The notes under the pieces: model-generated
What the model saw: only the letters and a program-made list of their open reading frames with translations
The model's database searches: none
Told to the model about the DNA's origin: nothing
Translations under genes and position numbers: made by a program
In this document: piece by piece, positions 13,388 to 25,289 of the stretch
Position numbering within the stretch: position 1 is the first letter of the stretch
Layout of the letters: each line of letters opens with the position of its first letter
Origin: Flavobacteriaceae bacterium
GTDB lineage: Bacteria; Bacteroidota; Bacteroidia; Flavobacteriales; Flavobacteriaceae
DNA length: 64,000 nt
Assembly (NCBI GenBank): GCA_013214065.1
Contig: JABSPK010000004.1
Span: 248,001-312,000 of the forward strand
Direction: 5' to 3'

Positions 13388-15004
13388 ATGAAAAACAACC
13401 TGATCGAAATCGCTAAGATTTCAACCCTTAAAAGCAAACAACCCACCTATGCCCTTGTCCAGAATACCGACTTGGTCATTGTCAAACACGAAACGGGCAT
13501 TTCGGTCTTATACGGTAGGTGCCTTCACCGTGGGGCACTGATGGCCGATGGCCACGTGGAAGGTAGTAATCTGATCTGTGGGGTGCATGGTTGGGATTAC
13601 CGCTACGATACCGGGGTCAGCGAATACAATAACAGTGAAAAGCTACATAAGTTTCAAGAATATATCGAAGGGGATGCCTTGATGGTCGATGGGGATGAAA
13701 TCGCCCAATTTGAAATCGATCACCCACAACCTTTCGATCGTGAGGCGTATTTGGGCCTTTATGCCGATACCCATCCTGAAGAAACCGAACCGTTTACGGG
13801 CTATATCAAAGAGTTGGCCAGAAATGGATTGAAGCACATCGGACACCATGGTTTTTCGGCTTCGATGGGCGTAGATCGTACCACCTTGCCCCAATGGAAA
13901 GACATCCAGTTTTTACCGGCCCAATTGGCTTCGAGGCCTTTGTTGGACCATGAAGCGGTGGCCACCCAAGTGACCATTGGGTCTAAAGCAAAGAAACCGT
14001 TGCAACTTGACATCCCGATTTTCGTAAGTGACATGAGTTTCGGGGCCCTGTCACGCGAAGCGAAGATCGCCCTTTCGAAAGGAGCTGAAATGGCCGGAAC
14101 GGGCATTTGCTCCGGTGAAGGCGGCATGCTGCCTGAAGAACAACAAAACAACTCCAGGTATTTCTATGAATTGGCTTCGGCCCAATTCGGATTTTCTTGG
14201 GACAAACTTGATAACGTACAGGCGTTTCACTTCAAAGGAGGACAAGGAGCGAAAACCGGAACCGGAGGGCATTTGCCGGGCACCAAAGTCAGCAAAGAGA
14301 TCGCTGAGGTCCGTGGATTGAACGAGGGGGAAACGGCCATTAGTCCGGCTACCTTTCCGGATTTTCATGGAGTCGATGATTTCAAGGCCTTCGCCCAAAA
14401 AGTCAGGGAGCGCACCGGGGGCATACCCATTGGATTCAAAATCGCGGCCAGCCATATCGAAAAGGACATCCAATTCGCACTCGATGTCGGTGTCGATTAC
14501 ATCATTCTTGATGGCCGTGGTGGCGGAACGGGTTCTGCCCCGACCATACTTAGGGACAATATCAACGTACCGACCATACCGGCATTGGCCAGGGCCCGAA
14601 AATACTTGGACAAAGTAGGCGCAACAGACGTGACCTTGATCATTACCGGCGGATTGCGGATCGCTGAAGATTTCGCAAAAGCCATGATGATGGGGGCCGA
14701 TGCCATAGCGGTTTCCAATTCGGCCATCCAAGCCATAGGGTGCTTGGGCATGCGTGCTTGTGGTTCGAACAACTGTCCGGTAGGGATCGCGACACAAAAA
14801 GAGCATTTACGGCAACGATTGATCATCGATGCCTCAGCCAAACAATTGCATAATTTCTTTTCGGCGACTGCCGATTTGATCCGGGTCGTGGCACGTTCGT
14901 GTGGGTATGACGATATCAATAAATTCAACGCAGATGATTTGTCCACCTACGATATCGATATCCATCGCTTGACCGGAATTCCATATGCAGGGGTAAATCC
15001 GTAA
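13388..15004 (+). CDS. Rieske domain fused to FMN-binding glutamate synthase-like domain
   Basis: 538 residues in two parts. Residues 1-100 are a Rieske [2Fe-2S] domain with ligands CLH (45-47) and CGVH (64-67). From about 150 onward it is a glutamate synthase (GltB/GltS) FMN-barrel domain: DIPIFVSDMSFGALSREAK, GTGICSGEGGMLPEE, KGGQGAKTGTGGHLPG, LDGRGGGTGSAP, and the cluster motif CGSNNCPVGIATQ. No amidotransferase domain is present, so it is not a normal glutamate synthase. FMN oxidoreductase chemistry fed by a Rieske centre is the best reading; the substrate is unknown. It is the first gene of a tight operon with two more Rieske fusions. Confidence 0.85.
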   Translation: MKNNLIEIAKISTLKSKQPTYALVQNTDLVIVKHETGISVLYGRCLHRGALMADGHVEGSNLICGVHGWDYRYDTGVSEYNNSEKLHKFQEYIEGDALMVDGDEIAQFEIDHPQPFDREAYLGLYADTHPEETEPFTGYIKELARNGLKHIGHHGFSASMGVDRTTLPQWKDIQFLPAQLASRPLLDHEAVATQVTIGSKAKKPLQLDIPIFVSDMSFGALSREAKIALSKGAEMAGTGICSGEGGMLPEEQQNNSRYFYELASAQFGFSWDKLDNVQAFHFKGGQGAKTGTGGHLPGTKVSKEIAEVRGLNEGETAISPATFPDFHGVDDFKAFAQKVRERTGGIPIGFKIAASHIEKDIQFALDVGVDYIILDGRGGGTGSAPTILRDNINVPTIPALARARKYLDKVGATDVTLIITGGLRIAEDFAKAMMMGADAIAVSNSAIQAIGCLGMRACGSNNCPVGIATQKEHLRQRLIIDASAKQLHNFFSATADLIRVVARSCGYDDINKFNADDLSTYDIDIHRLTGIPYAGVNP

Positions 15005-15006
15005 TC

Positions 15007-16242
15007 ATGTTTCAGATTTTTACAGGCATCGTTGCCTTATCATCACTACTTAGTTTTTTGAATAAAAAGCTGCTTAAACTTCCCGATACGATCGGTGTTA
15101 TGGTGTTGGCCATTGTGGCTTCGTTATTGCTCGCATTACTGGGCGTAGTCGATCAAGAAGCCTTCGTTTCGGTCTGTTCGATCATCGACACCATAGATTT
15201 TCGAACCATCTTGTTCGATTTCTTGTTGGGGTTTTTACTCTTTGCCGGATCGATTCATGTAGACCTCCATAGCCTAGTCGAAGAGAAAGGACCGGTTTTG
15301 GTCTACGCTTCGATCGGGGTATTGTTGTCCACGGCGCTGATCGGCAGTTTGTTCTTTTACCTGGCCCATGCCTTGGGTATGGAGGTGCCCTATGTATACT
15401 GTCTCGTATTCGGGGCCTTGATCTCGCCCACCGACCCAATCGCGGTCCTGGCATTGTTAAAGAAAGCTGGGGCGCCCAAAGACATGGAAATCAAGATCGT
15501 CGGTGAATCGTTGTTCAATGACGGTGTCGGTATCGTGGTATTTATTTCCTTATTATCCATTGCCACGATGAGTGGGGGCCATGGGATCGAACCATCACAT
15601 ATCGCCTTGGAATTCGTTCAAGAGGCTTTCGGAGGGGTAATGCTTGGTTTTGCTTTGGGATTTATGGGAAGGACCTTTTTAAAGCATATCACCGGATCTC
15701 CAATAGTAGCGGTCCATATTACTTTGGCCATGGTCATGGGAGGGTATTGGTTGGCCTCGATGATCCATGTGTCAGGAGCTTTGGCGATGGTCGTTATGGG
15801 GTTGATGGTAGGCAATTATTTGCATACGACCTGCAATGACGATCCATTGAAAGAGAACATGACCGTATTTTGGAGGGTGTTGGATGAAGTCTTGAATGCC
15901 ATACTGTTCGTTTTGATCGGGTTGGAAATCGTCAGTCTCGAATTCCAAAGTGGATATTTGGTGTTGGGTTTGCTTGCCATTCCCTTGGTATTGGCCTCCC
16001 GTTTCGCTTCGATGACCCTCTCGAATTTGTTCTTGAAGAAGAACCATCGCAGTGATTCCAAGAAAATAGCCATATTGACCTGGGCCGGTCTCCGTGGTGG
16101 TATATCGATCGCCCTGGCCCTGACCTTGCCTGAAGGGGAATTCCGCGAGGCCATCATTTTCACTACCTATTGTGTGGTGGTATTTTCGATCATCGTGCAA
16201 GGCCTGACCATTGATAAATTGGTCATCAAACTCTTAAGATAA
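15007..16242 (+). CDS. Na+/H+ antiporter, CPA1 (NhaP-like)
   Basis: 411 residues with about 12 hydrophobic segments. The motif GALISPTDPIAVLALLKKAGAPK and then GESLFNDGVGIVVF (the ND pair of CPA1 exchangers) are clear, and WAGLRGGISIALAL lies near the C-terminus. It exchanges Na+ for H+ across the inner membrane. It begins 2 bases after the Rieske-FMN gene and ends 4 bases before the Rieske-thiamine gene, so it belongs to the same transcript. That suggests the redox pathway is tied to pH or sodium balance (inference). Confidence 0.92.
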   Translation: MFQIFTGIVALSSLLSFLNKKLLKLPDTIGVMVLAIVASLLLALLGVVDQEAFVSVCSIIDTIDFRTILFDFLLGFLLFAGSIHVDLHSLVEEKGPVLVYASIGVLLSTALIGSLFFYLAHALGMEVPYVYCLVFGALISPTDPIAVLALLKKAGAPKDMEIKIVGESLFNDGVGIVVFISLLSIATMSGGHGIEPSHIALEFVQEAFGGVMLGFALGFMGRTFLKHITGSPIVAVHITLAMVMGGYWLASMIHVSGALAMVVMGLMVGNYLHTTCNDDPLKENMTVFWRVLDEVLNAILFVLIGLEIVSLEFQSGYLVLGLLAIPLVLASRFASMTLSNLFLKKNHRSDSKKIAILTWAGLRGGISIALALTLPEGEFREAIIFTTYCVVVFSIIVQGLTIDKLVIKLLR

Positions 16243-16246
16243 ACCT

Positions 16247-17599
16247 ATGGAAGATAAAAAACTGATTTGGCACAAAGTCCTCGATAACAAAAAGGACCTT
16301 CCCGAGGGTCGTGTAAAGACGGTTACGGCAGCCCATAAGGGAATTTGCCTGACCCATTTCAAAGGGGCTTTTTCGGCCCTTGACAACAAATGTCCCCATC
16401 AAGGAGGGCCATTGGGAGAGGGTTCCATAGAGAACGGCATGCTGCGTTGCCCTTGGCACGGGTGGGATTTTGATCCCTGCAGCGGAAAACCGCCCGGAGG
16501 TTATGACGATGGTATACCGACCTATGCAGTGAAAGAAGAGGGAGATGCGATTTATGTAGGATTGGAACCGGAGCCGGAACATGAGGCTACTGTTTCCGAT
16601 ATCATGGCAGAAACCATGGTGAACTGGGGGGTGACCAAAGTATTCGGAATGGTCGGACACTCGAATTTAGGCTTTGCCGACGCAATGCGCCGTCAAGAGG
16701 CCAAGGGAAAACTGAATTTCTATGGGATCCGACATGAAGGTGCCGCCGCCTTTGCCGCCTCTGCCTACGGAAAATTGACTGGGAAACCCGCGGCCTGTTT
16801 CTCCATTGCCGGCCCTGGCGCTACCAATATGTATACCGGGATGTGGGATGCCAAGGTCGATCGTGCCCCCTTACTCGCTTTGACCGGTCAAGTGGCCACC
16901 CAGGTAGTCGGAACAGGAAACTTCCAGGAAGTCGATTTGGTACGCGGGTTCAACACCGTGGCTGAGTTCAACCAACGGGTACAAAGCGATAGCAAGCACG
17001 CCGAACTGATGTCATTGGCCATCAAACATGCGATCCTAAACCGTGATGTTTCGCATTTGACTTTCCCTGATGAAGTCCAGGAACGAAAAGCCAAACCCAA
17101 CGCCAAGGCACAATCTCCCGAGCAAAGGATTACTTCATTGGAGATCGCTCCCCCGAAAACAGCCCTTCAGGATGCGGTAGCATTGATCAAAAAATCGAAG
17201 CGGCCGGTCATTATCATGGGGCATGGGGCACGAAAGCACAAAAAAGCCATCATCGCATTTGCAGAAAGTATGAACGCCGCGGTGGTGACCACTTTTAAGG
17301 GTAAAGGATTGATTCCTGACGACCATCGATTGGGCGGTGGCGTCTTGGGCCGTAGTGGTACACCGATCGCCTCATGGTTTATGAACGAATCCGATCTATT
17401 GCTCGTATTCGGGGCCTCCTTTTCGAACCATACCGGTATTACTCCGAAAAAACCGATCATCCAAGTTGATTTCGATCCTCTGGCGCTCAGTAAGTTCCAC
17501 AAAGTCGAAGTGGCGGTTTGGGGCGAGATTTCAAGAACTTTGGAGCAATTCACCGAGGCTTTGACCGGACAGATCGATACCGTCGATCAGACGGCATAA
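16247..17599 (+). CDS. Rieske-thiamine diphosphate enzyme, N-terminal part (cut by in-frame TAA)
   Basis: 450 residues. A Rieske domain has ligands CPH (49-51) and CPWH (68-71). The PYR domain of an acetolactate synthase/pyruvate oxidase-type enzyme follows, with the catalytic Glu in GIRHEGAAAFAASAYGK and the block CFSIAGPGATNMYTG. The central domain has KRPVIIMGHGARK and HTGITPKKPIIQVDFDP. A TAA at 17597-17599 ends the frame. The same frame continues directly with recognisable sequence to 18199, so the intact gene would encode about 650 residues. Nonsense mutation, read error, readthrough or a split enzyme are all possible. The reaction is probably decarboxylation or oxidation of a 2-oxo acid. 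Confidence 0.85.
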   Translation: MEDKKLIWHKVLDNKKDLPEGRVKTVTAAHKGICLTHFKGAFSALDNKCPHQGGPLGEGSIENGMLRCPWHGWDFDPCSGKPPGGYDDGIPTYAVKEEGDAIYVGLEPEPEHEATVSDIMAETMVNWGVTKVFGMVGHSNLGFADAMRRQEAKGKLNFYGIRHEGAAAFAASAYGKLTGKPAACFSIAGPGATNMYTGMWDAKVDRAPLLALTGQVATQVVGTGNFQEVDLVRGFNTVAEFNQRVQSDSKHAELMSLAIKHAILNRDVSHLTFPDEVQERKAKPNAKAQSPEQRITSLEIAPPKTALQDAVALIKKSKRPVIIMGHGARKHKKAIIAFAESMNAAVVTTFKGKGLIPDDHRLGGGVLGRSGTPIASWFMNESDLLLVFGASFSNHTGITPKKPIIQVDFDPLALSKFHKVEVAVWGEISRTLEQFTEALTGQIDTVDQTA

Positions 17600-18199
17600 A
17601 TCGCCGAACGATGGGACATCTGGAAGGCTGAAAAGGCCAAGCGACTTAAAGAGACTTCGAATCAAGGGGTCAGCTCGATCGCGGTTTTCGAAGCGATGAA
17701 CGCGCTCACCCCAAAGAATGCCGTAATGTGTGTCGATGTCGGCAACAATGCCTATTCCTTTGGTCGTTATTTCGAACCTTCTGATCAAGACTTCTTGATG
17801 TCTGGATATCTGGGTTCCATTGGCTTTGCCCTACCGGCCGCTATAGGTGCCTGGACGGCAGTTGAAGGAAAACGCCCTGTGGTCGCCGTTGCCGGTGATG
17901 GTGGGCTGTGCCAGTATCTCGCCGAGATCACCACTTTGGTCAAGTATGGTATGGACGTCAAACTCATTGTATTGAACAACCACGAATTGGGCAAGATATC
18001 AAAAGAACAGCGGGCCGGGGAGTTTGATGTTTGGAAGACTAGTCTTTCCAATCCGAATTTTGCGGATTTCGCGGTTTCTTGTGGGGCTTGGGGCCAGCGT
18101 GTTGAAGAACAAGCGGGTCTGGAAACTGCCATGAAGGCCCTATTCGCGCAAGACGGTCCTGCCGTATTGGAGGTTATGACCGATGTAAACCTGATCTAA
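17600..18199 (+). pseudogene. thiamine diphosphate-binding C-terminal part of the Rieske-TPP enzyme
   Basis: This is in the same frame as 16247-17599 with no shift. Codons directly after the TAA read IAERWDIWKAEKAKRL, which looks like normal linker. The PP domain follows: MCVDVGNNAYSFGRYF, GSIGFALPAAIGAW, and the cofactor motif GDGGLCQYLAEI up to VLNNHELGKI. The first ATG in the frame is at 17696, giving 167 residues and losing about 32 conserved codons. If translated separately it would be a PP-domain subunit; otherwise it is the dead half of an interrupted gene. It overlaps the next gene by one base (TAATG). Confidence 0.75.
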
Positions 18200-18411
18200 T
18201 GGAACTAGTGATACAAATCTTCTTGGGGATTTTGGCCGCCTATACCGTCCTGGGCATTTTGGTTGCCTTGCTCCTTGTCTTTCGATCCGTTTCGAAGCTC
18301 GATCCGGTTTTGGCCAATAGCAAGAAAAGTGTCAGGATCTTACTGTTTCCCGGCATGGTGGCCACCTGGCCCTTCTTGCTGAAGAAAATGCTTAAATCCG
18401 AAGAGCGATGA
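18199..18411 (+). CDS. small membrane protein of the Rieske operon
   Basis: 70 residues with one long hydrophobic helix at about 3-28 and a second short hydrophobic patch (ILLFPGMVATWPFLLKKM). The start overlaps the stop of the thiamine enzyme frame (TAATG) and its stop overlaps the next gene by 4 bases. No family is recognised. The tight coupling suggests a membrane subunit or assembly factor for the neighbouring redox proteins. Confidence 0.7.
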   Translation: MELVIQIFLGILAAYTVLGILVALLLVFRSVSKLDPVLANSKKSVRILLFPGMVATWPFLLKKMLKSEER

Positions 18412-18764
18412 TAGCAACACAACGACGTGCACATCGATGGATCTGGGTCGGCCTTAGCCTGGTAATTATGCTACTCTTAGTGCAGATCATTCCACGGTTG
18501 GATTATGCACGAACCGATGCGGTTCATACCGATAAGACCGAGAATATCCAATTTTTTCGAGGCGAAGGCCATATCGAGCTGCAACTGAATACGCCGTTGA
18601 AAGGTGCTTCTGCGGTCGTTTATGGGCTATCCCCGAAAGGGAAGTCGGTGCTAGGTCAATTGCAGGGCGCGAAAAGCTACCGATTTAAAATCGATGATTC
18701 GGTGACAGGAATCCTGATCGTCGATGAATTGCGGAATAATGAACTCTTTAAAACCGAATTTTAA
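18408..18764 (+). CDS. single-pass membrane protein of the Rieske operon
   Basis: 118 residues. A membrane helix at 11-27 (IWVGLSLVIMLLLVQII) is followed by an external beta-rich domain (IELQLNTPLKGASAVVYGLSPKGKSV). No cysteines or histidines suggest a cofactor. It overlaps both neighbours by 1-4 bases. Unknown family. Confidence 0.7.
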   Translation: MIATQRRAHRWIWVGLSLVIMLLLVQIIPRLDYARTDAVHTDKTENIQFFRGEGHIELQLNTPLKGASAVVYGLSPKGKSVLGQLQGAKSYRFKIDDSVTGILIVDELRNNELFKTEF

Positions 18765-19795
18765 TGGGATTGGATTATACTTGGGTACTATGGAACAAGC
18801 AGAAAAAGCGATATGATCGCTTCATTGCCATCGGTATGCTATCCTATTTGGTGTTGTTCTTTACCATCGGTTTTTTGACCAATCCTGAAATGATCGCTGA
18901 AACATTAATCATCCGGGCCTTTGGATCCCTGGCTTTGTTATTGCTTCACATCATCTTGGTCATCGGACCTTTATCGCGATTAAACCCAAAGTTCTTGCCC
19001 TTGTTGTACAACCGTAGGCATTTGGGGGTCAGCATGTTTTTGGCGGCCTTCATCCATGGGGTGATCTCGATCATCCAATTCCATACCCTGGGCGATACCA
19101 ACCCGATTTATTCCATTTTTACTGAAAACCTGGATTATGGATCCTTGTGGGATTTTCCGTTCCAAGTCCTCGGTTTTTTGGCATTGCTCATCCTGTTCGT
19201 CATGGCATCGACAAGCCATGATTTCTTTTTGCATAACCTGTCGGCCCGGGTTTGGAAGCGCTTGCACATGATGGTTTACTTGGCCTATGCCCTGATTTTG
19301 ATGCACGTATTCCTTGGGGCCTTTCAACAAGAGGCCTATACCGTGACTACCTTGGTCTTGGTCCTTGGTTTCATACTCTTATGCGCCTTGCACCTTAGCG
19401 CGGCTTTTAAAGAAGCTACGATCGATGGCCAAAAAGCCCAGTTGGTCGACACCAATTGGCAAAAGGTCTGTTCGCCTTCAGAGATCGAAGAAGGAAGGGC
19501 CAAACTATTTACGGTCGGTGGCGAACGTGTGGCCCTATTCAAACATCAAGGGGCCATTTCCACCGTTCACAATGTCTGTAAACACCAAGGCGGTCCGCTG
19601 GGAGAGGGTAAGATCATCGATGGTTGTATTACCTGTCCATGGCATGGATACCAATATTTACCGCATAATGGGCAATCACCACCACCGTTTACCGAAAAAA
19701 TCAAGACCTATGCCCTAAAACTTGAAGACGGGTCGATTTATATCGATCCCCAGGGGTTTGAAGAAGGAACCGAAGTATCACCATTAGTTTGTTAG
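18764..19795 (+). CDS. ferric reductase-like membrane domain fused to a Rieske domain
   Basis: 343 residues. Residues 15-215 form about six membrane helices of the ferric-reductase/MsrQ/cytochrome b-like type, with candidate heme ligands His86, His98, His168 and His181. A Rieske domain (228-335) follows on the cytoplasmic side, with ligands CKH (272-274) and CPWH (291-294) in HNVCKHQGGPLGEG and CITCPWHGYQY. It could pass electrons between quinol or heme in the membrane and soluble partners. I know of no characterised protein with this arrangement. It starts at the stop of the previous gene. Confidence 0.82.
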   Translation: MGLDYTWVLWNKQKKRYDRFIAIGMLSYLVLFFTIGFLTNPEMIAETLIIRAFGSLALLLLHIILVIGPLSRLNPKFLPLLYNRRHLGVSMFLAAFIHGVISIIQFHTLGDTNPIYSIFTENLDYGSLWDFPFQVLGFLALLILFVMASTSHDFFLHNLSARVWKRLHMMVYLAYALILMHVFLGAFQQEAYTVTTLVLVLGFILLCALHLSAAFKEATIDGQKAQLVDTNWQKVCSPSEIEEGRAKLFTVGGERVALFKHQGAISTVHNVCKHQGGPLGEGKIIDGCITCPWHGYQYLPHNGQSPPPFTEKIKTYALKLEDGSIYIDPQGFEEGTEVSPLVC

Positions 19796-19796
19796 C

Positions 19797-20552
19797 ATGC
19801 AGGAAAACGAGGAATTCTATGTGGGTTATGTCGACGCAGTAGGCAAAAAGACGAAAAAGCAGCTGAGACGCTTTGTGATGCTGGCCTTGGGGCTGTTGTT
19901 GTTGGCAGGTTCGACCTTTGCGTTTTTTCAACGTCCTGCGGCCAACAGTTCCTTTGATTTTGGGGCTCCCACCGAAGTGACGGGGGTTTTCCATGAATCA
20001 CCATACCCGATGTTAAGGGTGCGTTTGGCGGAAAACGAATACAAGGAAATCGTCTTATTGGGATTTGGGAAATTCGGAGCGAACCCCTATTTAAAGGAAG
20101 TGCGCGTTAGCCATGGCGATCTCCATGGGAAGACCTTGCAGATCGAAGGGGAGTTGATTTATTATAACGGCAAAACCTTGTTGCAGATCGATGACAGCCA
20201 AAAAGTGACGGTCTTGGGTGATGCTGAGTACGATGAAGCGACCCTGGCCTTAGGCCAAAGATCGATCCAAGGGGAGATTATCGATCCCAAATGCTATTTC
20301 GGGGTGATGAAGCCCGGCTATGGGAAAATCCACAGAAGTTGTGCGGCCCTTTGTATCGCAGGAGGCATGCCCCCGGTATTGGTGAGCGCCGCTGAAAGTG
20401 GGGAGGAAGCATATTTTTTATTGACCGATTTGAAAGGAAAACCAATCCACAAAGACATATTACCGTATATAGGGCAACCCGCCCTTATAAACGGGGAAGT
20501 GGAGCAGATCGGGGATTGGAAGTTGATGAAGATTTCCGTGGATCGCATCTAA
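19797..20552 (+). CDS. membrane-anchored protein with conserved Cys/His block
   Basis: 251 residues. One membrane helix lies at 27-44, then two similar beta-rich halves with an OB-like pattern (LQIEGELIYYNGKTLLQID and ALINGEVEQIGDWKLMKIS). Between them is the block CYFGVMKPG (Cys166) followed by HRSCAALCIAGGMPP (His179, Cys182, Cys186). The three Cys and one His could bind a metal or a cluster. It begins one base after the ferric-reductase/Rieske stop. The family is not named by me; the operon points to a redox or assembly role. Confidence 0.65.
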   Translation: MQENEEFYVGYVDAVGKKTKKQLRRFVMLALGLLLLAGSTFAFFQRPAANSSFDFGAPTEVTGVFHESPYPMLRVRLAENEYKEIVLLGFGKFGANPYLKEVRVSHGDLHGKTLQIEGELIYYNGKTLLQIDDSQKVTVLGDAEYDEATLALGQRSIQGEIIDPKCYFGVMKPGYGKIHRSCAALCIAGGMPPVLVSAAESGEEAYFLLTDLKGKPIHKDILPYIGQPALINGEVEQIGDWKLMKISVDRI

Positions 20553-20584
20553 AAGTTGGATAAAACATCAACAATATTTTGAAA

Positions 20585-21034
20585 ATGAAGTTACCATTAA
20601 GCTTTTTTGTCGTCTTATGGATAGGTTTCGCAGGTTTTGCCCAATCGATCGATTACAATACCAAGAAAGGGTATGTCGCCAATGGGTATGACGTCGTCGG
20701 TTATTTTGACGGAACCGCAATTCAAGGAAAAAAACAGCATACAGCGACCCATGATGGGGTCAAGTATAAGTTCGCAACGGCCGAAAATCTAAAGACCTTC
20801 AAGGCCGAACCTGGGAAATACGTGCCCCTTTACGGAGGATATTGTGCCTATGCCGTGGCGACCAAAAGCGATAAGGTGTCGATCGACCCTGAAACTTTCG
20901 AAATCCGCGATGGGCGATTACTTTTGTTCTACAATGCCTGGGGTACGAATACCTTGGAACTGTGGGAACAGGATTCACCGGAAAAATTGAAGGCCAAGGC
21001 CGACCAAAACTGGGAGAAAATCAAAAACGACTAA
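20585..21034 (+). CDS. exported YHS-domain protein
   Basis: 149 residues from ATG 20585. It has a signal peptide (FFVVLWIGFAGFAQS) and a YHS-type domain: VANGYDVVGYFDG, GVKYKFATAENLKTFKAEPGKYVPLYGGYCAYAVA, and the tail FYNAWGTNTLELWEQDS. YHS domains are small, metal-linked folds; the single Cys lies in GGYCAYAVA. It is 32 bases after the previous gene. A TATTTTG sequence directly before the start could be a weak promoter. Confidence 0.85.
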   Translation: MKLPLSFFVVLWIGFAGFAQSIDYNTKKGYVANGYDVVGYFDGTAIQGKKQHTATHDGVKYKFATAENLKTFKAEPGKYVPLYGGYCAYAVATKSDKVSIDPETFEIRDGRLLLFYNAWGTNTLELWEQDSPEKLKAKADQNWEKIKND

Positions 21035-21047
21035 GCCAACGGATCAA

Positions 21048-21710
21048 GTGTTGCAGCTAAGGAACTTTATCAAATTAGTGATCGCAGGGATGCTCATCAG
21101 CTTTGTGGGTGCCCTTCCTTTGGGTTCGCTCAACATTACGGCCTTTGATATTGCTGCCAATGATGGTTTCAGCAGTGCCATAGGGTTCGCCTTAGCGGCT
21201 ATTGTCGTCGAACTGATCTATGTACGCTTGACCCTATTGGGAAATCGCAAATTGGTCGTTGGCGATCGGTTCGCCCGCTATGCCTTACCTTTTGCAGCGG
21301 CCCTCCTTTTGTATTTAGCGATAGCCAGTTTTTATACGGCAAAGGTTTCAGTCGATGTCCCTGTAGGACCGATGCTGTTTCCCAAAATCGCTTCGCCCAT
21401 TCTATTAGGCCTATTACTCAGTGCCTTGAATCCATTACAGATCCCGTTTTGGATGCTTTGGAACAAGTATTTATTGGACAAGGGTATTTTGGCCCATCAA
21501 CGGTCTTCATACGCCGGATATATGATGGGCATTGGATCGGGCACCTTTTTAGGATTGCTGGTCTTTATGTTCTTGGGCCGGTTCATCGTATCGAATTATG
21601 AAGGGTACCATGTGGTGACCAATACCATTCTTGGGATCTTATACCTCGGTTTTTCATGTTATTTGCTGATATTGCTCTATAAAAAACATACAAATCTTAA
21701 AACACCCTAA
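21048..21710 (+). CDS. LysE family transporter-like membrane protein
   Basis: 220 residues with six hydrophobic helices. The start has the LysE-family signature GALPLGSLNITAFDIA and the middle has LLSALNPLQIPFWMLWNK. LysE/RhtB proteins export amino acids; the substrate here is unknown. The frame begins with GTG 21048; TTG 21051 is an alternative. It follows the YHS gene by 13 bases. Confidence 0.75.
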   Translation: MLQLRNFIKLVIAGMLISFVGALPLGSLNITAFDIAANDGFSSAIGFALAAIVVELIYVRLTLLGNRKLVVGDRFARYALPFAAALLLYLAIASFYTAKVSVDVPVGPMLFPKIASPILLGLLLSALNPLQIPFWMLWNKYLLDKGILAHQRSSYAGYMMGIGSGTFLGLLVFMFLGRFIVSNYEGYHVVTNTILGILYLGFSCYLLILLYKKHTNLKTP

Positions 21711-21716
21711 ACCAGA

Positions 21717-22205
21717 ATGATGTTCGAATCTTCAATACAAACCCTTGAACAGTTCAAAGCCGTGTTGTGCCAGTTGCCGGAAGCGTGTTATTCACGGCCG
21801 ATCGAGGTGTTATCGAATGCGACTATCGGTCAACACTCGAGACATGTGATCGAGTTGTATAGCTGTTTGATCGCCGGCTATGAAGGCAGCATGGTCTGTT
21901 ATGACAAACGCCAGCGCAACAAAAAGATCGAACATGAGGTGGCCTATGCCATTGAACAGTTGGAAAGCATCCAAGCGCATTTGAAAAAACCGAACAAGCC
22001 TTTGCAAGTCGCCTATGAGTTAGCTGGGCAAGAAGTGGTTTTGGAATCCAATTACAACCGCGAGGTCATGTACAACCTGGAACATGCGATCCATCACCAT
22101 GCATTGATCAAGGTGGGTATTTTAGACCAGACCGACATCATCGTTCCCGAAAGCTTTGGGGTAGCCCCCTCTACGATGCAATATCGAAAGGTATGTGTAC
22201 AGTAA
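21717..22205 (+). CDS. DinB-like four-helix protein
   Basis: 162 residues with the helical pattern and His positions of the DinB/YfiT superfamily: IGQHSRHVIELYSCL, NYNREVMYNLEHAIHHHALIKVG and PESFGVAPSTMQYRK. The three His would form a metal site. Members include thiol transferases and stress proteins; no specific activity can be assigned. It begins with tandem ATGs 6 bases after the transporter and overlaps the NRDE gene by 13 bases. Confidence 0.7.
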   Translation: MMFESSIQTLEQFKAVLCQLPEACYSRPIEVLSNATIGQHSRHVIELYSCLIAGYEGSMVCYDKRQRNKKIEHEVAYAIEQLESIQAHLKKPNKPLQVAYELAGQEVVLESNYNREVMYNLEHAIHHHALIKVGILDQTDIIVPESFGVAPSTMQYRKVCVQ

Positions 22206-22915
22206 GCTATATCAAAAACGGACCGACCGTGTTGATCACGAGTAATCGCGATGAGCACATCATGCGCAAAAATGCCTTGGCTCCGGCCGAGCAGGATATC
22301 AATGGTAAAAAAGTCGTGTTCCCCAAAGACCCAAAAGCGGGTGGTTCTTGGTTTGCCGTAGCCGAAGACGGTGCGGTGGTCGTTTTGTTGAACGGTGCTT
22401 TTGAAAAGCATGTTTCCAGCGGACCTTATCGAAAAAGCCGCGGTTTGGTGGTGCTTGATGTAGCCTCACAAGAACATCGAAAGCCTTTTTTAAAGTCGAT
22501 GGATCTTGAAGGTATCGAACCCTTTACCTTACTAGTGTACGAGCAGGGAGAACTAAACGAACTTCGATGGGACGGTTTGCGAAAGACGCTGTCAAACAAG
22601 GATATAGATCAAGCCCATGTTTGGTCATCAGCTACCCTGTACGACCCGGAAACCATAGCCCATCGCGAAGGACTCTTTGAGGAGTTTCTCAATCAGGGTG
22701 AGCGAAGCGCTGCAGGAGTAATCGCTTTACATTCGAACGACAATGGTGATTCGGAAAACGGCTTCATAATCGATCGCAAGACCGGTTTAAAGACTTTTAG
22801 CGTAACCCAGGCGATCATTTCGCAAAACACGGTGACTTTAGATCATCACGATTTGTTGAATGCAAAGACCTATAGAACGGTATTGGACGGCCAACAGCTT
22901 GAACCCACGAATTGA
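22193..22915 (+). CDS. NRDE (TANGO2-like) family protein
   Basis: 240 residues beginning with MCTVSYI and the name-giving SNRDE at about 17-21. Further family blocks are PKDPKAGGSWFAVAEDG, VVVLLNGAFEKH and GLRKTLSNKD. The initiator-near Cys and the NRDE motif recall Ntn-hydrolase-like folds. TANGO2 relatives have been linked to heme and CoA handling in other organisms; here the role is open. It overlaps both neighbours (ATGA with the next gene). Confidence 0.88.
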   Translation: MCTVSYIKNGPTVLITSNRDEHIMRKNALAPAEQDINGKKVVFPKDPKAGGSWFAVAEDGAVVVLLNGAFEKHVSSGPYRKSRGLVVLDVASQEHRKPFLKSMDLEGIEPFTLLVYEQGELNELRWDGLRKTLSNKDIDQAHVWSSATLYDPETIAHREGLFEEFLNQGERSAAGVIALHSNDNGDSENGFIIDRKTGLKTFSVTQAIISQNTVTLDHHDLLNAKTYRTVLDGQQLEPTN

Positions 22916-23958
22916 TGGAACGATTGAAATTGACATGGCATCGCTTGACACATTGGGAGTATTGGCCCTTATGGGCGGTCTATTACCCGCTGTTTCCCGT
23001 GTGGCTGTATTTTTCGATCAAAGCACGTTCGTTTTTCTTTTTCAATACCGCCAACCCAATGATGAAAAACGGTGGCATGGCCATGGAATCCAAAAAAGAT
23101 ATTTATGAGATGATTCCAGACCGGTATATCCCCAAGACGATTTTGATCGAAAAAGGGAATACCGCAACCAAGATGCTCGATCGGGTCAAGGAGGCTTCCA
23201 TTTCTTTCCCCTTGATCGCCAAACCGGATATCGGTATGAAAGCCTTTGGGGTCGCCAAAGTATATGACGAACAAGGGTTATCGGCCTATCTTAAGCAGAG
23301 CCCGGAGGATTTTTTGGTCCAGGAGTTGATCGAGTATCCTAAAGAAGTGGGTATTTTCTATGTGAGACATCCGGATGAACCCAAAGGGCGTATTACGGGT
23401 ATCGTTTCGAAGGAGTTTCTCGCCGTAGTCGGTGATGGCTTTGCGACCATTGAGCAGCTGATCAAACGCAATCCACGTAGTCATTTACAACTCAAAGCCT
23501 TGCGCAAACGTTTCGGCAAGAAATTGCATTCGGTGTTGGGTGAAGGGGAACAGTTCATTTTGGTGCCGTTCGGAAGCCATACCCGAGGAGCTAAATTCAT
23601 TGACTACTCCCACCGCATCAATCCGGATTTGGTCGAGGTTATCGATACGATCTGCACCCAAATACCCGAATTCCATTACGGTCGTCTCGATGTGCTGTAT
23701 CGTTCATTTGACGAATTGAGTGCCGGAAAGCACTTTTCGGTCATCGAAATCAATGGGGCAGGTGGTGAGGCCACCCATATCTACGATCCCAAACATTCGC
23801 TGTTTTTCGCATGGAAAGAAATCACACGGCATTGGAACCAGTTGAATTTGATCAGTATCAAAAACCACCGACGTGGTTTTTCGTATTTGAGTTTTAAGGA
23901 TGGGCGCGCTATGCTTCGCGAAAATGGGGCTTTGGAAGAACAATTAAAATTGGTATGA
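22915..23958 (+). CDS. ATP-grasp fold protein
   Basis: 347 residues. The N-terminus is aromatic-rich and may touch the membrane (WPLWAVYYPLFPVWLYF). The rest matches ATP-grasp ligases: FPLIAKPDIGMKAFGV (nucleotide Lys), FLVQELIEYPKEVGIFY, HYGRLDVLYRSF and VIEINGAGGEATHIYD. It probably joins a carboxylate to an amine or similar group. The ATG at 22915 overlaps the NRDE stop. The substrate is unknown. Confidence 0.8.
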   Translation: MERLKLTWHRLTHWEYWPLWAVYYPLFPVWLYFSIKARSFFFFNTANPMMKNGGMAMESKKDIYEMIPDRYIPKTILIEKGNTATKMLDRVKEASISFPLIAKPDIGMKAFGVAKVYDEQGLSAYLKQSPEDFLVQELIEYPKEVGIFYVRHPDEPKGRITGIVSKEFLAVVGDGFATIEQLIKRNPRSHLQLKALRKRFGKKLHSVLGEGEQFILVPFGSHTRGAKFIDYSHRINPDLVEVIDTICTQIPEFHYGRLDVLYRSFDELSAGKHFSVIEINGAGGEATHIYDPKHSLFFAWKEITRHWNQLNLISIKNHRRGFSYLSFKDGRAMLRENGALEEQLKLV

Positions 23959-23959
23959 A

Positions 23960-24526
23960 ATGAAGTTAGCACGGTTGATCTTGATTTTGATGGGATGTGC
24001 AGTGACCTCTGTTTCAGCCCAACAGGCTGATATGCCGAAAAACCAATTGGGGGTTTCGGCACAATTTTATCCGGCGGGTTTTATACCCACGGTGAACCTA
24101 GAGCATCACCTCAAAGGAAAGACCTCCTTGTTGCTCCGATTGGGGGCCAACATCGTCGACCGTCAAGACTTCAGCGATGAGAACCTGACAGAGGAAGGTA
24201 CGGGTTTTGGAGGATCACTAGGGGTCCGAAACCGCTATCCCTGGGGCAAAGGGGATTTTATCGCCGGTTTGAATTTGGATGTGTGGAGCTTGACCATTGA
24301 TTGGACCGATATCGCACCTACCGATGCCCCGCTTTCAGGGAGTACCTTTACCTTGGTCGTCCAACCTTGGTTGGAAGCCGGGTACTTTTTGCCCATAAAA
24401 AATAGCAATTCACAAATCGGATTTTCCTTGGGTTTCGGTCGTGAAATCAATGCGATAACCAGTGGTGAGGAGGTCGAACAAGGGTTTATCGCCAGCGCTT
24501 CCTTACAATTCCAATTTGGGCTATAG
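23960..24526 (+). CDS. small outer-membrane barrel-like protein
   Basis: 188 residues with a signal peptide ending near SVSAQQ. Alternating strands follow (TSLLLRLGANIVDRQ, FIAGLNLDVWSLTID, QIGFSLGFGREINA) and a final FQFQFGL-type end typical of outer-membrane barrels. It starts one base after the ATP-grasp gene, so the same transcript is likely. No family recognised. Confidence 0.65.
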   Translation: MKLARLILILMGCAVTSVSAQQADMPKNQLGVSAQFYPAGFIPTVNLEHHLKGKTSLLLRLGANIVDRQDFSDENLTEEGTGFGGSLGVRNRYPWGKGDFIAGLNLDVWSLTIDWTDIAPTDAPLSGSTFTLVVQPWLEAGYFLPIKNSNSQIGFSLGFGREINAITSGEEVEQGFIASASLQFQFGL

Positions 24527-24542
24527 GGGATGAACTACTAGT

Positions 24543-25289
24543 TCAGGAGGTGAGTGCCTGAAAAGCGGCATCCAAAAACGAAACCACCGCTTCCTCATTA
24601 TGATTCCCAACCGCTAATACCGCGCCTTTGAATCCCTCGTTTTTCCATTCTCCCAGCGGAAGCGGATCGAAATCGTCCGTTGCGATACCCTCCTGCCCAT
24701 GGTATCCGCTGATATAGAAATAGTGTTGGTCGACCATGCTGTCAGGAATTGCCATTCCCATTCCCACCGAACGCCCAGAACCATCTTCCAAGACCACGAA
24801 CGCCCCGGTATCGAAGTGATGCGGCCAAACGCGCACATCCGATGAGAGTTTGATTTTTTCCAAGAATGCCCCTAACGCATCATTGGCCAGTACCCGTATC
24901 GCGAGCAAGGCATCGATTTGATCGATATTTTTCTTTTCAAAGACAAAGTCCGCACCCCATTCGAAATCCAGGGCATAATGAAGGTCAAAGCGATAAGGCG
25001 TTTCGAAGCCAAGGTCTTTGGCCGACCGTTCCAACCAATGGAGGGCTTCTTGATGCGATTTACCATGCAATTCGAAATGGGTTTTTGCCGCATCCGTCCA
25101 GCATAAACTGAAATTAGGGACATCGAATCGCAATTGCAGCCCCTGGTCATTCAGTGGCCAGCTTTCAAAGCTTCGGCTTGAACTGTCAAAATTGACGTTC
25201 GTATGGCTGTCATCGGATTTGGCTGCCGAGAAACTCTTTCCGGCCATGGCCAAGAATTGGGAAGCGAGATGTAGTTGTCGGTTCATCAT
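24543..25289 (-). CDS. conserved hypothetical protein
   Basis: 248 residues, soluble, without signal peptide or membrane helix. Notable blocks are WPLNDQGLQLRFDVPNFSLCW, DVRVWPHHFDTGAFVVLED and DQHYFYISGYHG. The His pair in WPHHFD and the later HYFYISGYH could be functional. No function can be assigned. Two ATGs (25289, 25286) are possible. It lies 4 bases after the barrel gene at 25293, so the two are probably cotranscribed. Confidence 0.65.
   Translation of the reverse strand: MMNRQLHLASQFLAMAGKSFSAAKSDDSHTNVNFDSSSRSFESWPLNDQGLQLRFDVPNFSLCWTDAAKTHFELHGKSHQEALHWLERSAKDLGFETPYRFDLHYALDFEWGADFVFEKKNIDQIDALLAIRVLANDALGAFLEKIKLSSDVRVWPHHFDTGAFVVLEDGSGRSVGMGMAIPDSMVDQHYFYISGYHGQEGIATDDFDPLPLGEWKNEGFKGAVLAVGNHNEEAVVSFLDAAFQALTS

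Follow-up and report, generated by a model that had tools for sequence, protein, structure and literature searches.

The window analyzed here, a stretch of 64,000 nucleotides from a Flavobacteriaceae bacterium (assembly GCA_013214065.1, contig JABSPK010000004.1, numbered C19 in our set, from a genome of 3.48 Mb), contains a gene cluster that codes for three different proteins in which a Rieske domain is fused to another enzyme. We refer to them as GLTR, TPPR, and FRER, and their Pfam partners are Glu_synthase, a flavin mononucleotide (FMN) domain of glutamate synthases, in GLTR; TPP_enzyme_N/M/C, of thiamine diphosphate (ThDP) enzymes, in TPPR; and Ferric_reduct in FRER. The Rieske domain is N-terminal in GLTR and TPPR and C-terminal in FRER. 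All three score above the Pfam cut-off for the family (PF00355, 20.3 bits), with 42.6, 56.7, and 62.3 bits, and the C-x-H...C-x-x-H ligand motif is complete in each, which confirms the three fusions with full ligands and different partners proposed in the original prediction, a reading made from the sequence alone. Only two further Rieske matches were found in the rest of the genome, both on other contigs. The Na+/H+ antiporter and the YHS protein (g8) named in that prediction are also recognized here, and the cluster is completed by two small proteins (g4 and g5) and an anchored protein with conserved cysteines and histidine (g7).

The association of the three fusions is real, as we found it in many other genomes. 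We searched one set of 395 Bacteroidota genomes for the three proteins, counting GLTR when the match started in the first 14 residues (48 of 61 genomes, as 13 matches did not include the Rieske part; an internal stop is present in two of the 48) and FRER when the match went beyond the Rieske part (13 of 16 genomes, after dropping three Rieske-only matches; contig ends cut 2 of the 13). TPPR is present in 11 genomes of 9 genera, and the FRER genomes span 10 genera. GLTR accompanies TPPR in 10 of the 11 genomes (expected, 1.3; Fisher P of 3e-9) and FRER in 12 of the 13 (expected, 1.6; P of 3e-11), while TPPR and FRER occur together in 6 (expected, 0.4; P of 1e-7), all these tests ignoring relatedness. 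The exceptions are G128, with TPPR but no GLTR, and G219, with FRER but no GLTR. All three fusions were present in 6 of the 395 genomes, that of the window included. A lack of co-occurrence elsewhere had been set beforehand as a refutation of the original prediction, and the prediction clearly passed this test, both in this set and in the individual loci described next.

A scan of genome contigs gave at least 80 TPPR loci, and we analyzed the best 80 by match, a ranking that may favor uninterrupted copies, with up to 10 kb of neighboring sequence on each side (some contigs are short). On the same strand as TPPR we found GLTR in 54 of these loci, the exchanger in 43, and FRER and g7 in 28 each, and 24 loci have all three fusions on one strand. 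In 57 of the loci TPPR is flanked by 5 kb or more on each side, and within 6 kb of TPPR these contain GLTR in 43 cases, the exchanger in 37, FRER in 22, and a protein of the FMN_red family in 6. The best 80 loci come mostly from Bacteroidota, but one of them (L064), with all three fusions, is a Pyrinomonadaceae metagenome-assembled genome from the Acidobacteriota. In a draw of 149 genomes from that phylum, FRER is present in 12, and three of these (L064, L204, and L210) have complete TPPR and GLTR beside it, although on the opposite strand in L204 and L210; L211, where the TPPR match spans only the Rieske part, was left out of this count. In Shewanella hanedai (L063), TPPR is present, FRER is absent at an E value of 1e-40, and the match to GLTR does not include the first 133 residues. 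One uncultured Croceitalea genome has two TPPR genes on separate contigs (L033 and L073).

From these data, TPPR and GLTR form the common pair, and FRER makes up, with g4 and with g7, a membrane module that is optional. In all 9 genomes searched that have TPPR and GLTR but no FRER at the locus, FRER was also absent from the genome at an E value of 1e-40. The membrane heme protein to which electrons would pass in the original prediction is therefore no obligatory sink.

In the window itself, the eight tightly packed co-directional frames described originally hold as regards direction and spacing, as the gaps between 13388 and 21034 go from -4 to +26 bases if the interruption of TPPR (see below) is set apart. 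However, TPPR is not a single frame, and the run passes 21034 with five more genes (LysE, f16, TANGO2, f17, and f22; gaps of -13 to +13), so that 13388 to 24526 contains 14 co-directional stretches with gaps of -13 to +26 bases, the TPPR interruption again apart (Table 1). The two small membrane proteins of the original prediction are also partly sustained: g4 has one strong hydrophobic segment, but g5 has a single N-terminal one, and its remainder is probably extracytoplasmic. Searches of g4 and g5 against Pfam and NCBIfam gave no match at an E value of 0.01. We counted 7 promoter-like sites against a mean of 16 in shuffled sequences, with a consensus that may not suit this organism, and 21 terminator-like sites against 16.

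Table 1. Genes of the cluster and its surroundings (positions within the window; aa, amino acids)
Feature	Position	Strand	Remarks
GLTR (g1)	13388..15004	+	538 aa; N-terminal Rieske, PF00355, 42.6 bits; PF01645, 294 bits; C-x5-C-x4-C
g2, Na+/H+ exchanger, CPA1-like	15007..16242	+	PF00999, 207 bits; 12 hydrophobic segments
TPPR part 1 (g3N), Rieske, PYR, and middle domains of a pyruvate-oxidase-like ThDP enzyme	16247..17599	+	ends at in-frame TAA
TPPR part 2 (g3C), PP domain	17600..18199	+	GDG...NN; PF02775, 110 bits, residues 46-192
g4, 70-aa membrane protein	18199..18411	+	one strong hydrophobic segment; FRER companion
g5, 118 aa	18408..18764	+	one N-terminal hydrophobic segment after basic residues (family alignment)
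FRER (g6)	18764..19795	+	six hydrophobic segments; paired His 86/98 and 168/181; C-terminal Rieske
g7, anchored tandem-OB protein	19797..20552	+	invariant C166, H179, C182, and C186 (22-row alignment)
g8, YHS-domain protein	20579..21034	+	NCBIfam NF041384, 114.7 bits (cut-off, 70)
LysE-type translocator	21048..21710	+	PF01810, 47.8 bits
f16, 162 aa	21717..22205	+	no Pfam match at E 0.001
TANGO2 family	22193..22915	+	PF05742, 47.5 bits; also in L202
f17, 348 aa	22912..23958	+	no Pfam match at E 0.001
f22	23960..24526	+	last co-directional frame of the run
f2, DUF5996-related protein	24546..25289	-	convergent in the window; between GLTR and TPPR in many relatives

GLTR shares with glutamate synthases (GltB and the ferredoxin-dependent GltS) the FMN synthase domain and the C-x5-C-x4-C motif for a [3Fe-4S] cluster, but it has the Rieske domain where GltS carries the glutaminase part. 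Pfam recognized neither a glutaminase nor an NAD(P)H-binding domain in the protein. The GltS loop PGEGG (in the three chains compared, two of which are the same protein) is TGTGG in at least 97% of 54 GLTR rows, and the match to the glutamate synthase equivalog NF008730 is 128.8 bits against a cut-off of 1047. In addition, GLTR can be replaced. Nine of the best 80 TPPR loci code for an FMN_red-family protein (PF03358) of 245 to 252 aa, and none of the nine has GLTR, an exclusion with a chance of 1.3e-5 if the loci are independent. In three pairs of loci (L036/L034, L044/L042, and L068/L072; L042 is from the cultured relative Flagellimonas flava DSM 22638) the gene order from this slot to TPPR is the same while the gene in the slot is GLTR in one and FMN_red in the other, and in the first two pairs the shared order of the scanned genes runs on through FRER to f17. 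GLTR was not found anywhere, at an E value of 1e-60, in any of the 8 genomes of the FMN_red type that were searched. Due to the lack of the glutaminase part, the changed loop, and this swap, it seems less likely that GLTR is a plain glutamate synthase. Since its substitute in this slot is again a flavin protein, GLTR would seem to have a specific partner. This replaceability does not support the pathway as it was written originally. Among 14 other TPPR genomes without GLTR at the locus, 8 have a GLTR match elsewhere, full-length and in one piece in 6 of them.

The f2 gene was also present in 11 of 25 GLTR loci without adjoining TPPR, with weak scores in three. Its family matches PF19459 in 5 of 22 members, the one in the window not being among them. 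We could assign no function from its fold: the model has a predicted local distance difference test (pLDDT) score of 93.7, but VIA-align 2 gave Z scores of no more than 7.6, with secretion chaperones matching over part of the chain.

TPPR contains the three domains of ThDP enzymes (TPP_enzyme_N, 114.5 bits; M, 118.1 bits; C, 110.1 bits), although in the window they are spread over two open frames. The single frame assumed originally is split by an in-frame TAA (17597 to 17599) into 450 codons with the Rieske, PYR, and middle domains and a stretch of 199 codons in the same frame with the PP domain. Nearly all the other TPPR genes compared are free of interruptions, as the longest frame has at least 630 aa in 79 of the best 80 loci (the other, L058, begins at its contig end) and no stop appears in the other 21 matches among 249 genomes of the family. 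G088 (L017, 8172 to 10124) has an in-frame stop of its own at another place, a TGA at codon 615, while TPPR is uninterrupted in G312 (L018), from the same genus. In the window, the enzyme may be split but still functional, the gene may be decaying, or a base may have been miscalled. In the window genome, and compatibly with any reading of the cluster, it is quite possible, if short of probable, that the ThDP arm is dead or decaying and that the operon works as GLTR plus FRER-g7; the rarity of the stop and the second case in G088 favor this. Against it, the stop sits in the linker ahead of the PP domain, which starts at about 17735, and an ATG at 17696 precedes that start, so two polypeptides could still assemble; both halves keep every expected domain according to Pfam, and a base-calling error may also explain the stop.

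The nearest solved relative of TPPR is the pyruvate oxidase PoxB of Escherichia coli (3eya; E value of 2e-84, profile against structures), with the ThDP part aligned at nearly full length. Both proteins share the ThDP domains and the GDG...NN motif, and positions 316 to 418 of the TPPR profile align to PoxB without gaps. A putative cofactor of TPPR is flavin adenine dinucleotide (FAD), which it probably binds. The two proteins differ at both ends. The N-terminal Rieske domain is an addition of TPPR, while the aligned region extends to residue 527 of the 572 in chain 3ey9 (647 of the 652 profile positions), which leaves the C-terminal residues 528 to 572 of PoxB without a counterpart. This C-terminal tail is the part of PoxB that binds the membrane. 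Lacking this tail and having a Rieske domain, TPPR would seem to use a protein, not quinone, as its acceptor. Against the PoxB equivalog NF006377 (cut-off, 742 bits), the two halves of the interrupted window copy, the one scanned, give 268 and 127 bits. With regard to the substrate, malic enzymes, which make pyruvate, share the run of TPPR and FRER in L049 and L050, where Pfam confirms one protein each, and, as read by eye, in L047 and L053; these runs include Roseivirga and a Cyclobacteriaceae locus. They favor pyruvate, and the oxidation of a 2-oxo acid, already proposed in the original prediction, is favored by the nearest solved relative and by these runs, with pyruvate as the most likely putative substrate.

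FRER has six hydrophobic segments by hydropathy, and histidines 86, 98, 168, and 181 are invariant in 18 of 18 rows, in pairs on transmembrane segments 3 and 5, which makes two heme sites likely. The segments and paired histidines are common to the ferric-reductase-domain superfamily (MsrQ, NOX, and FRE), but FRER scores 41.5 bits against the MsrQ equivalog NF003831 (cut-off, 130) and is set apart by its constant partners g4 and g7. Each of these was found in 22 of the 23 FRER loci fetched (the window has both, and G127 was left out), and in the two loci with a miss, L180 and L179, FRER lies at the contig end. The Rieske domain follows the last helix. A ferric-reductase-domain protein with a Rieske domain appears as architecture M4 in an earlier publication, in which full-length FRE and NOX relatives have FAD- and NADPH-binding domains at the place of the FRER Rieske domain (PMC3591440), and this position suggests an electron-input role for the latter. 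None of the ten cluster stretches scanned had a molybdopterin-type Pfam match; a search for MsrP in the genome was not made.

The g7 protein has one anchor after basic residues, and C166, H179, C182, and C186 are invariant in all 22 rows. Its model (pLDDT of 87.7) has two OB-like domains, the second read from the order of the strands. We were unable to place it in a known family by sequence, with a best PDB E value of 0.61 and no Pfam family matched by more than one of the 22 members (best E value, 0.027). Foldseek gave no match to the model at an E value of 0.001 or better. The matches from VIA-align 2 were to generic OB folds (Z of at most 7.7) and covered mostly residues 52 to 148, with the half that contains the C/H/C/C residues barely tested. 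The arrangement resembles the MsrQ-like flavinylated systems, in which a cytosolic donor, a six-helix heme protein, and an extracytosolic acceptor are encoded together (PMC8238504). The donor here would instead be a fused Rieske domain, a word absent from the main text of that source, and no FMN-binding Pfam match was found in the 22 g7 members at an E value of 0.1 (ApbE was not searched for nearby). A path from the cytosolic Rieske center through the hemes to an external site in g7 is plausible from sequence and model.

The genes located after 20552 are part of the usual company of the FRER module, as YHS, f16, TANGO2, and f17 are near FRER in some genomes of the L064 phylum (L202, L205 to L209, and L211). 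A YHS protein of the g8 type follows FRER-g7 in L202 and is near them in L211; f16 is present in the FRER loci L202, L211, L171, L174, and L180, and f17 in L171, L174, L180, and L205 to L209. The LysE-type translocator was found in 12 loci of the protein clustering, the window counted. The TANGO2-family gene shares its run with a membrane heme-type protein, and titles in the literature are at odds over a heme-trafficking role of TANGO2 homologs. Other neighbors were a Pycsar-effector-family protein (PF18967; L081, 10362 to 10997), whose family is near the cluster in ten loci, and a histidine-specific methyltransferase (PF10017) close to GLTR and TPPR in L104 (4741 to 5700), with similar-looking cases, by eye, in L091, L076, and L096.

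We compared the Rieske domains in a tree of 35 rows, which includes 9 further Rieske domains from these genomes; the domains are short, and 13 of the 32 inner branches are open. The TPPR domains and the GLTR domains each form one lineage (support of 100 and 99), while the FRER domains need two changes and are unresolved. Each fusion therefore appears to be old, and we can discard that a single Rieske domain was recently duplicated within the operon, as the TPPR and GLTR domains belong to separate well-supported lineages.

The reading that we tentatively favor, without granting it an even chance, is that of a modular electron transfer system, in which a pyruvate-oxidase-like enzyme would pass electrons through its fused Rieske domain to a flavin partner, with an optional membrane route. 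TPPR would oxidatively decarboxylate a 2-oxo acid, most likely pyruvate, and the electrons would leave via its own Rieske center, whereas PoxB hands them to quinone at the membrane. The usual acceptor would be the Rieske domain of GLTR, feeding the FMN and the [3Fe-4S] cluster of the glutamate-synthase-like domain, a flavin role that the FMN_red protein would fill in some lineages. Where g4-(g5)-FRER-g7 is present, the same centers could also reduce the Rieske domain of FRER. The two hemes of FRER would then take the electrons to the other side of the membrane, where the C/H/C/C site of g7 would receive them, as MsrQ serves MsrP. Gene content, motifs, co-occurrence, the replacement of GLTR by FMN_red, and the constancy of FRER, g4, and g7 are what we observe; from them we infer the substrate, the cofactors, the transfer from Rieske to Rieske, the direction of flow, and the metal binding and role of g7.

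Several observations weigh against this coupled system. The modules separate readily from one another: 38 of the 48 GLTR genomes have no TPPR, so GLTR must have other donors; in 8 of the 57 TPPR loci with long flanks, both GLTR and FMN_red are missing within 6 kb; and FRER is dispensable, being absent from 23 of 31 TPPR genomes searched (picked mostly for a locus without it), as well as from no fewer than 6 of the 8 searched genomes of the FMN_red type. The close form of FMN_red (84 to 96% identity) was found in 11 of 249 family genomes, 5 with TPPR and 6 without (Fisher P of 0.001), and any relative in 60 of the 249, which goes against a one-to-one rule. The window copy of TPPR is interrupted, as is that of G088 by another stop, and the separate old Rieske lineages would also be the result of parallel recruitment. 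Last, neighbors like OsmC, the histidine methyltransferase, and YjeF_N suggest a general stress island. It is for the free modules, the old separate lineages, the stress-type neighbors, and a function drawn from inference that we hold the coupled reading only tentatively.

The alternative that survives best, although we regard it as rather unlikely, is precisely a co-regulated stress island without direct coupling, where each fusion is fed by a general ferredoxin or reductase. The free separation of the modules and the three distinct Rieske lineages, which are not shared copies, fit this view, as do the neighbors OsmC (L057), histidine-specific methyltransferase (L104), YjeF_N (L156), DUF427, DUF2721, and Crp-type regulators. 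However, the pairing of TPPR with GLTR is tighter than a loose island would give, and the exchange of GLTR for another flavin protein at this position speaks for a specific partner. Much less probable is a reverse flow, with GLTR or FMN_red as the source of electrons for export through FRER or for TPPR. The FMN_red family is named for NADPH-dependent reductases, and GLTR and FRER adjoin without TPPR in L158, L160, and L162, but Pfam finds no NAD(P)H-binding domain in GLTR, and ThDP oxidases are normally electron donors. Least of all do we expect the Rieske domains to sense redox state or oxygen, turning the enzymes they are attached to on or off and carrying little current, as their attachment to three unrelated enzymes at either end would allow, since FRER has two paired-histidine sites in a transmembrane electron transfer fold and its Rieske domain where FRE and NOX relatives hold their FAD and NADPH domains.

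Returning to the modular electron transfer system, the finding of the same set in distant bacteria suggests one that has not been described. The individual proteins are unusual versions of known families, and the set, taken as a system, is undescribed within the reach of our literature search: titles and abstracts of the open-licence PMC literature, with partial coverage, gave no account of the cluster or of the Rieske-ThDP and Rieske-GltS fusions. The claim of novelty made at the start stands for the whole set but not for the Rieske-bearing ferric-reductase-domain architecture (M4 above). A broader proposal, which we consider improbable, is that the Rieske domain acts as a shared plug joining the TPPR, flavin (GLTR or FMN_red), and transmembrane (FRER and g7) modules via matched centers, with an electron pool based on Rieske centers that would exist alongside quinones and ferredoxins in Bacteroidota and Acidobacteriota.

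The swap between GLTR and FMN_red offers a direct genetic way to test the function of the glutamate-synthase-like protein, and g7, as a membrane-anchored OB-fold family with invariant C/H/C/C residues, is a candidate for a new extracytosolic redox or metal protein. If the coupling is true, electrons from a ThDP-dependent oxidation would reach flavin enzymes and cross the membrane without quinone or free ferredoxin, and such wiring would span at least two phyla.

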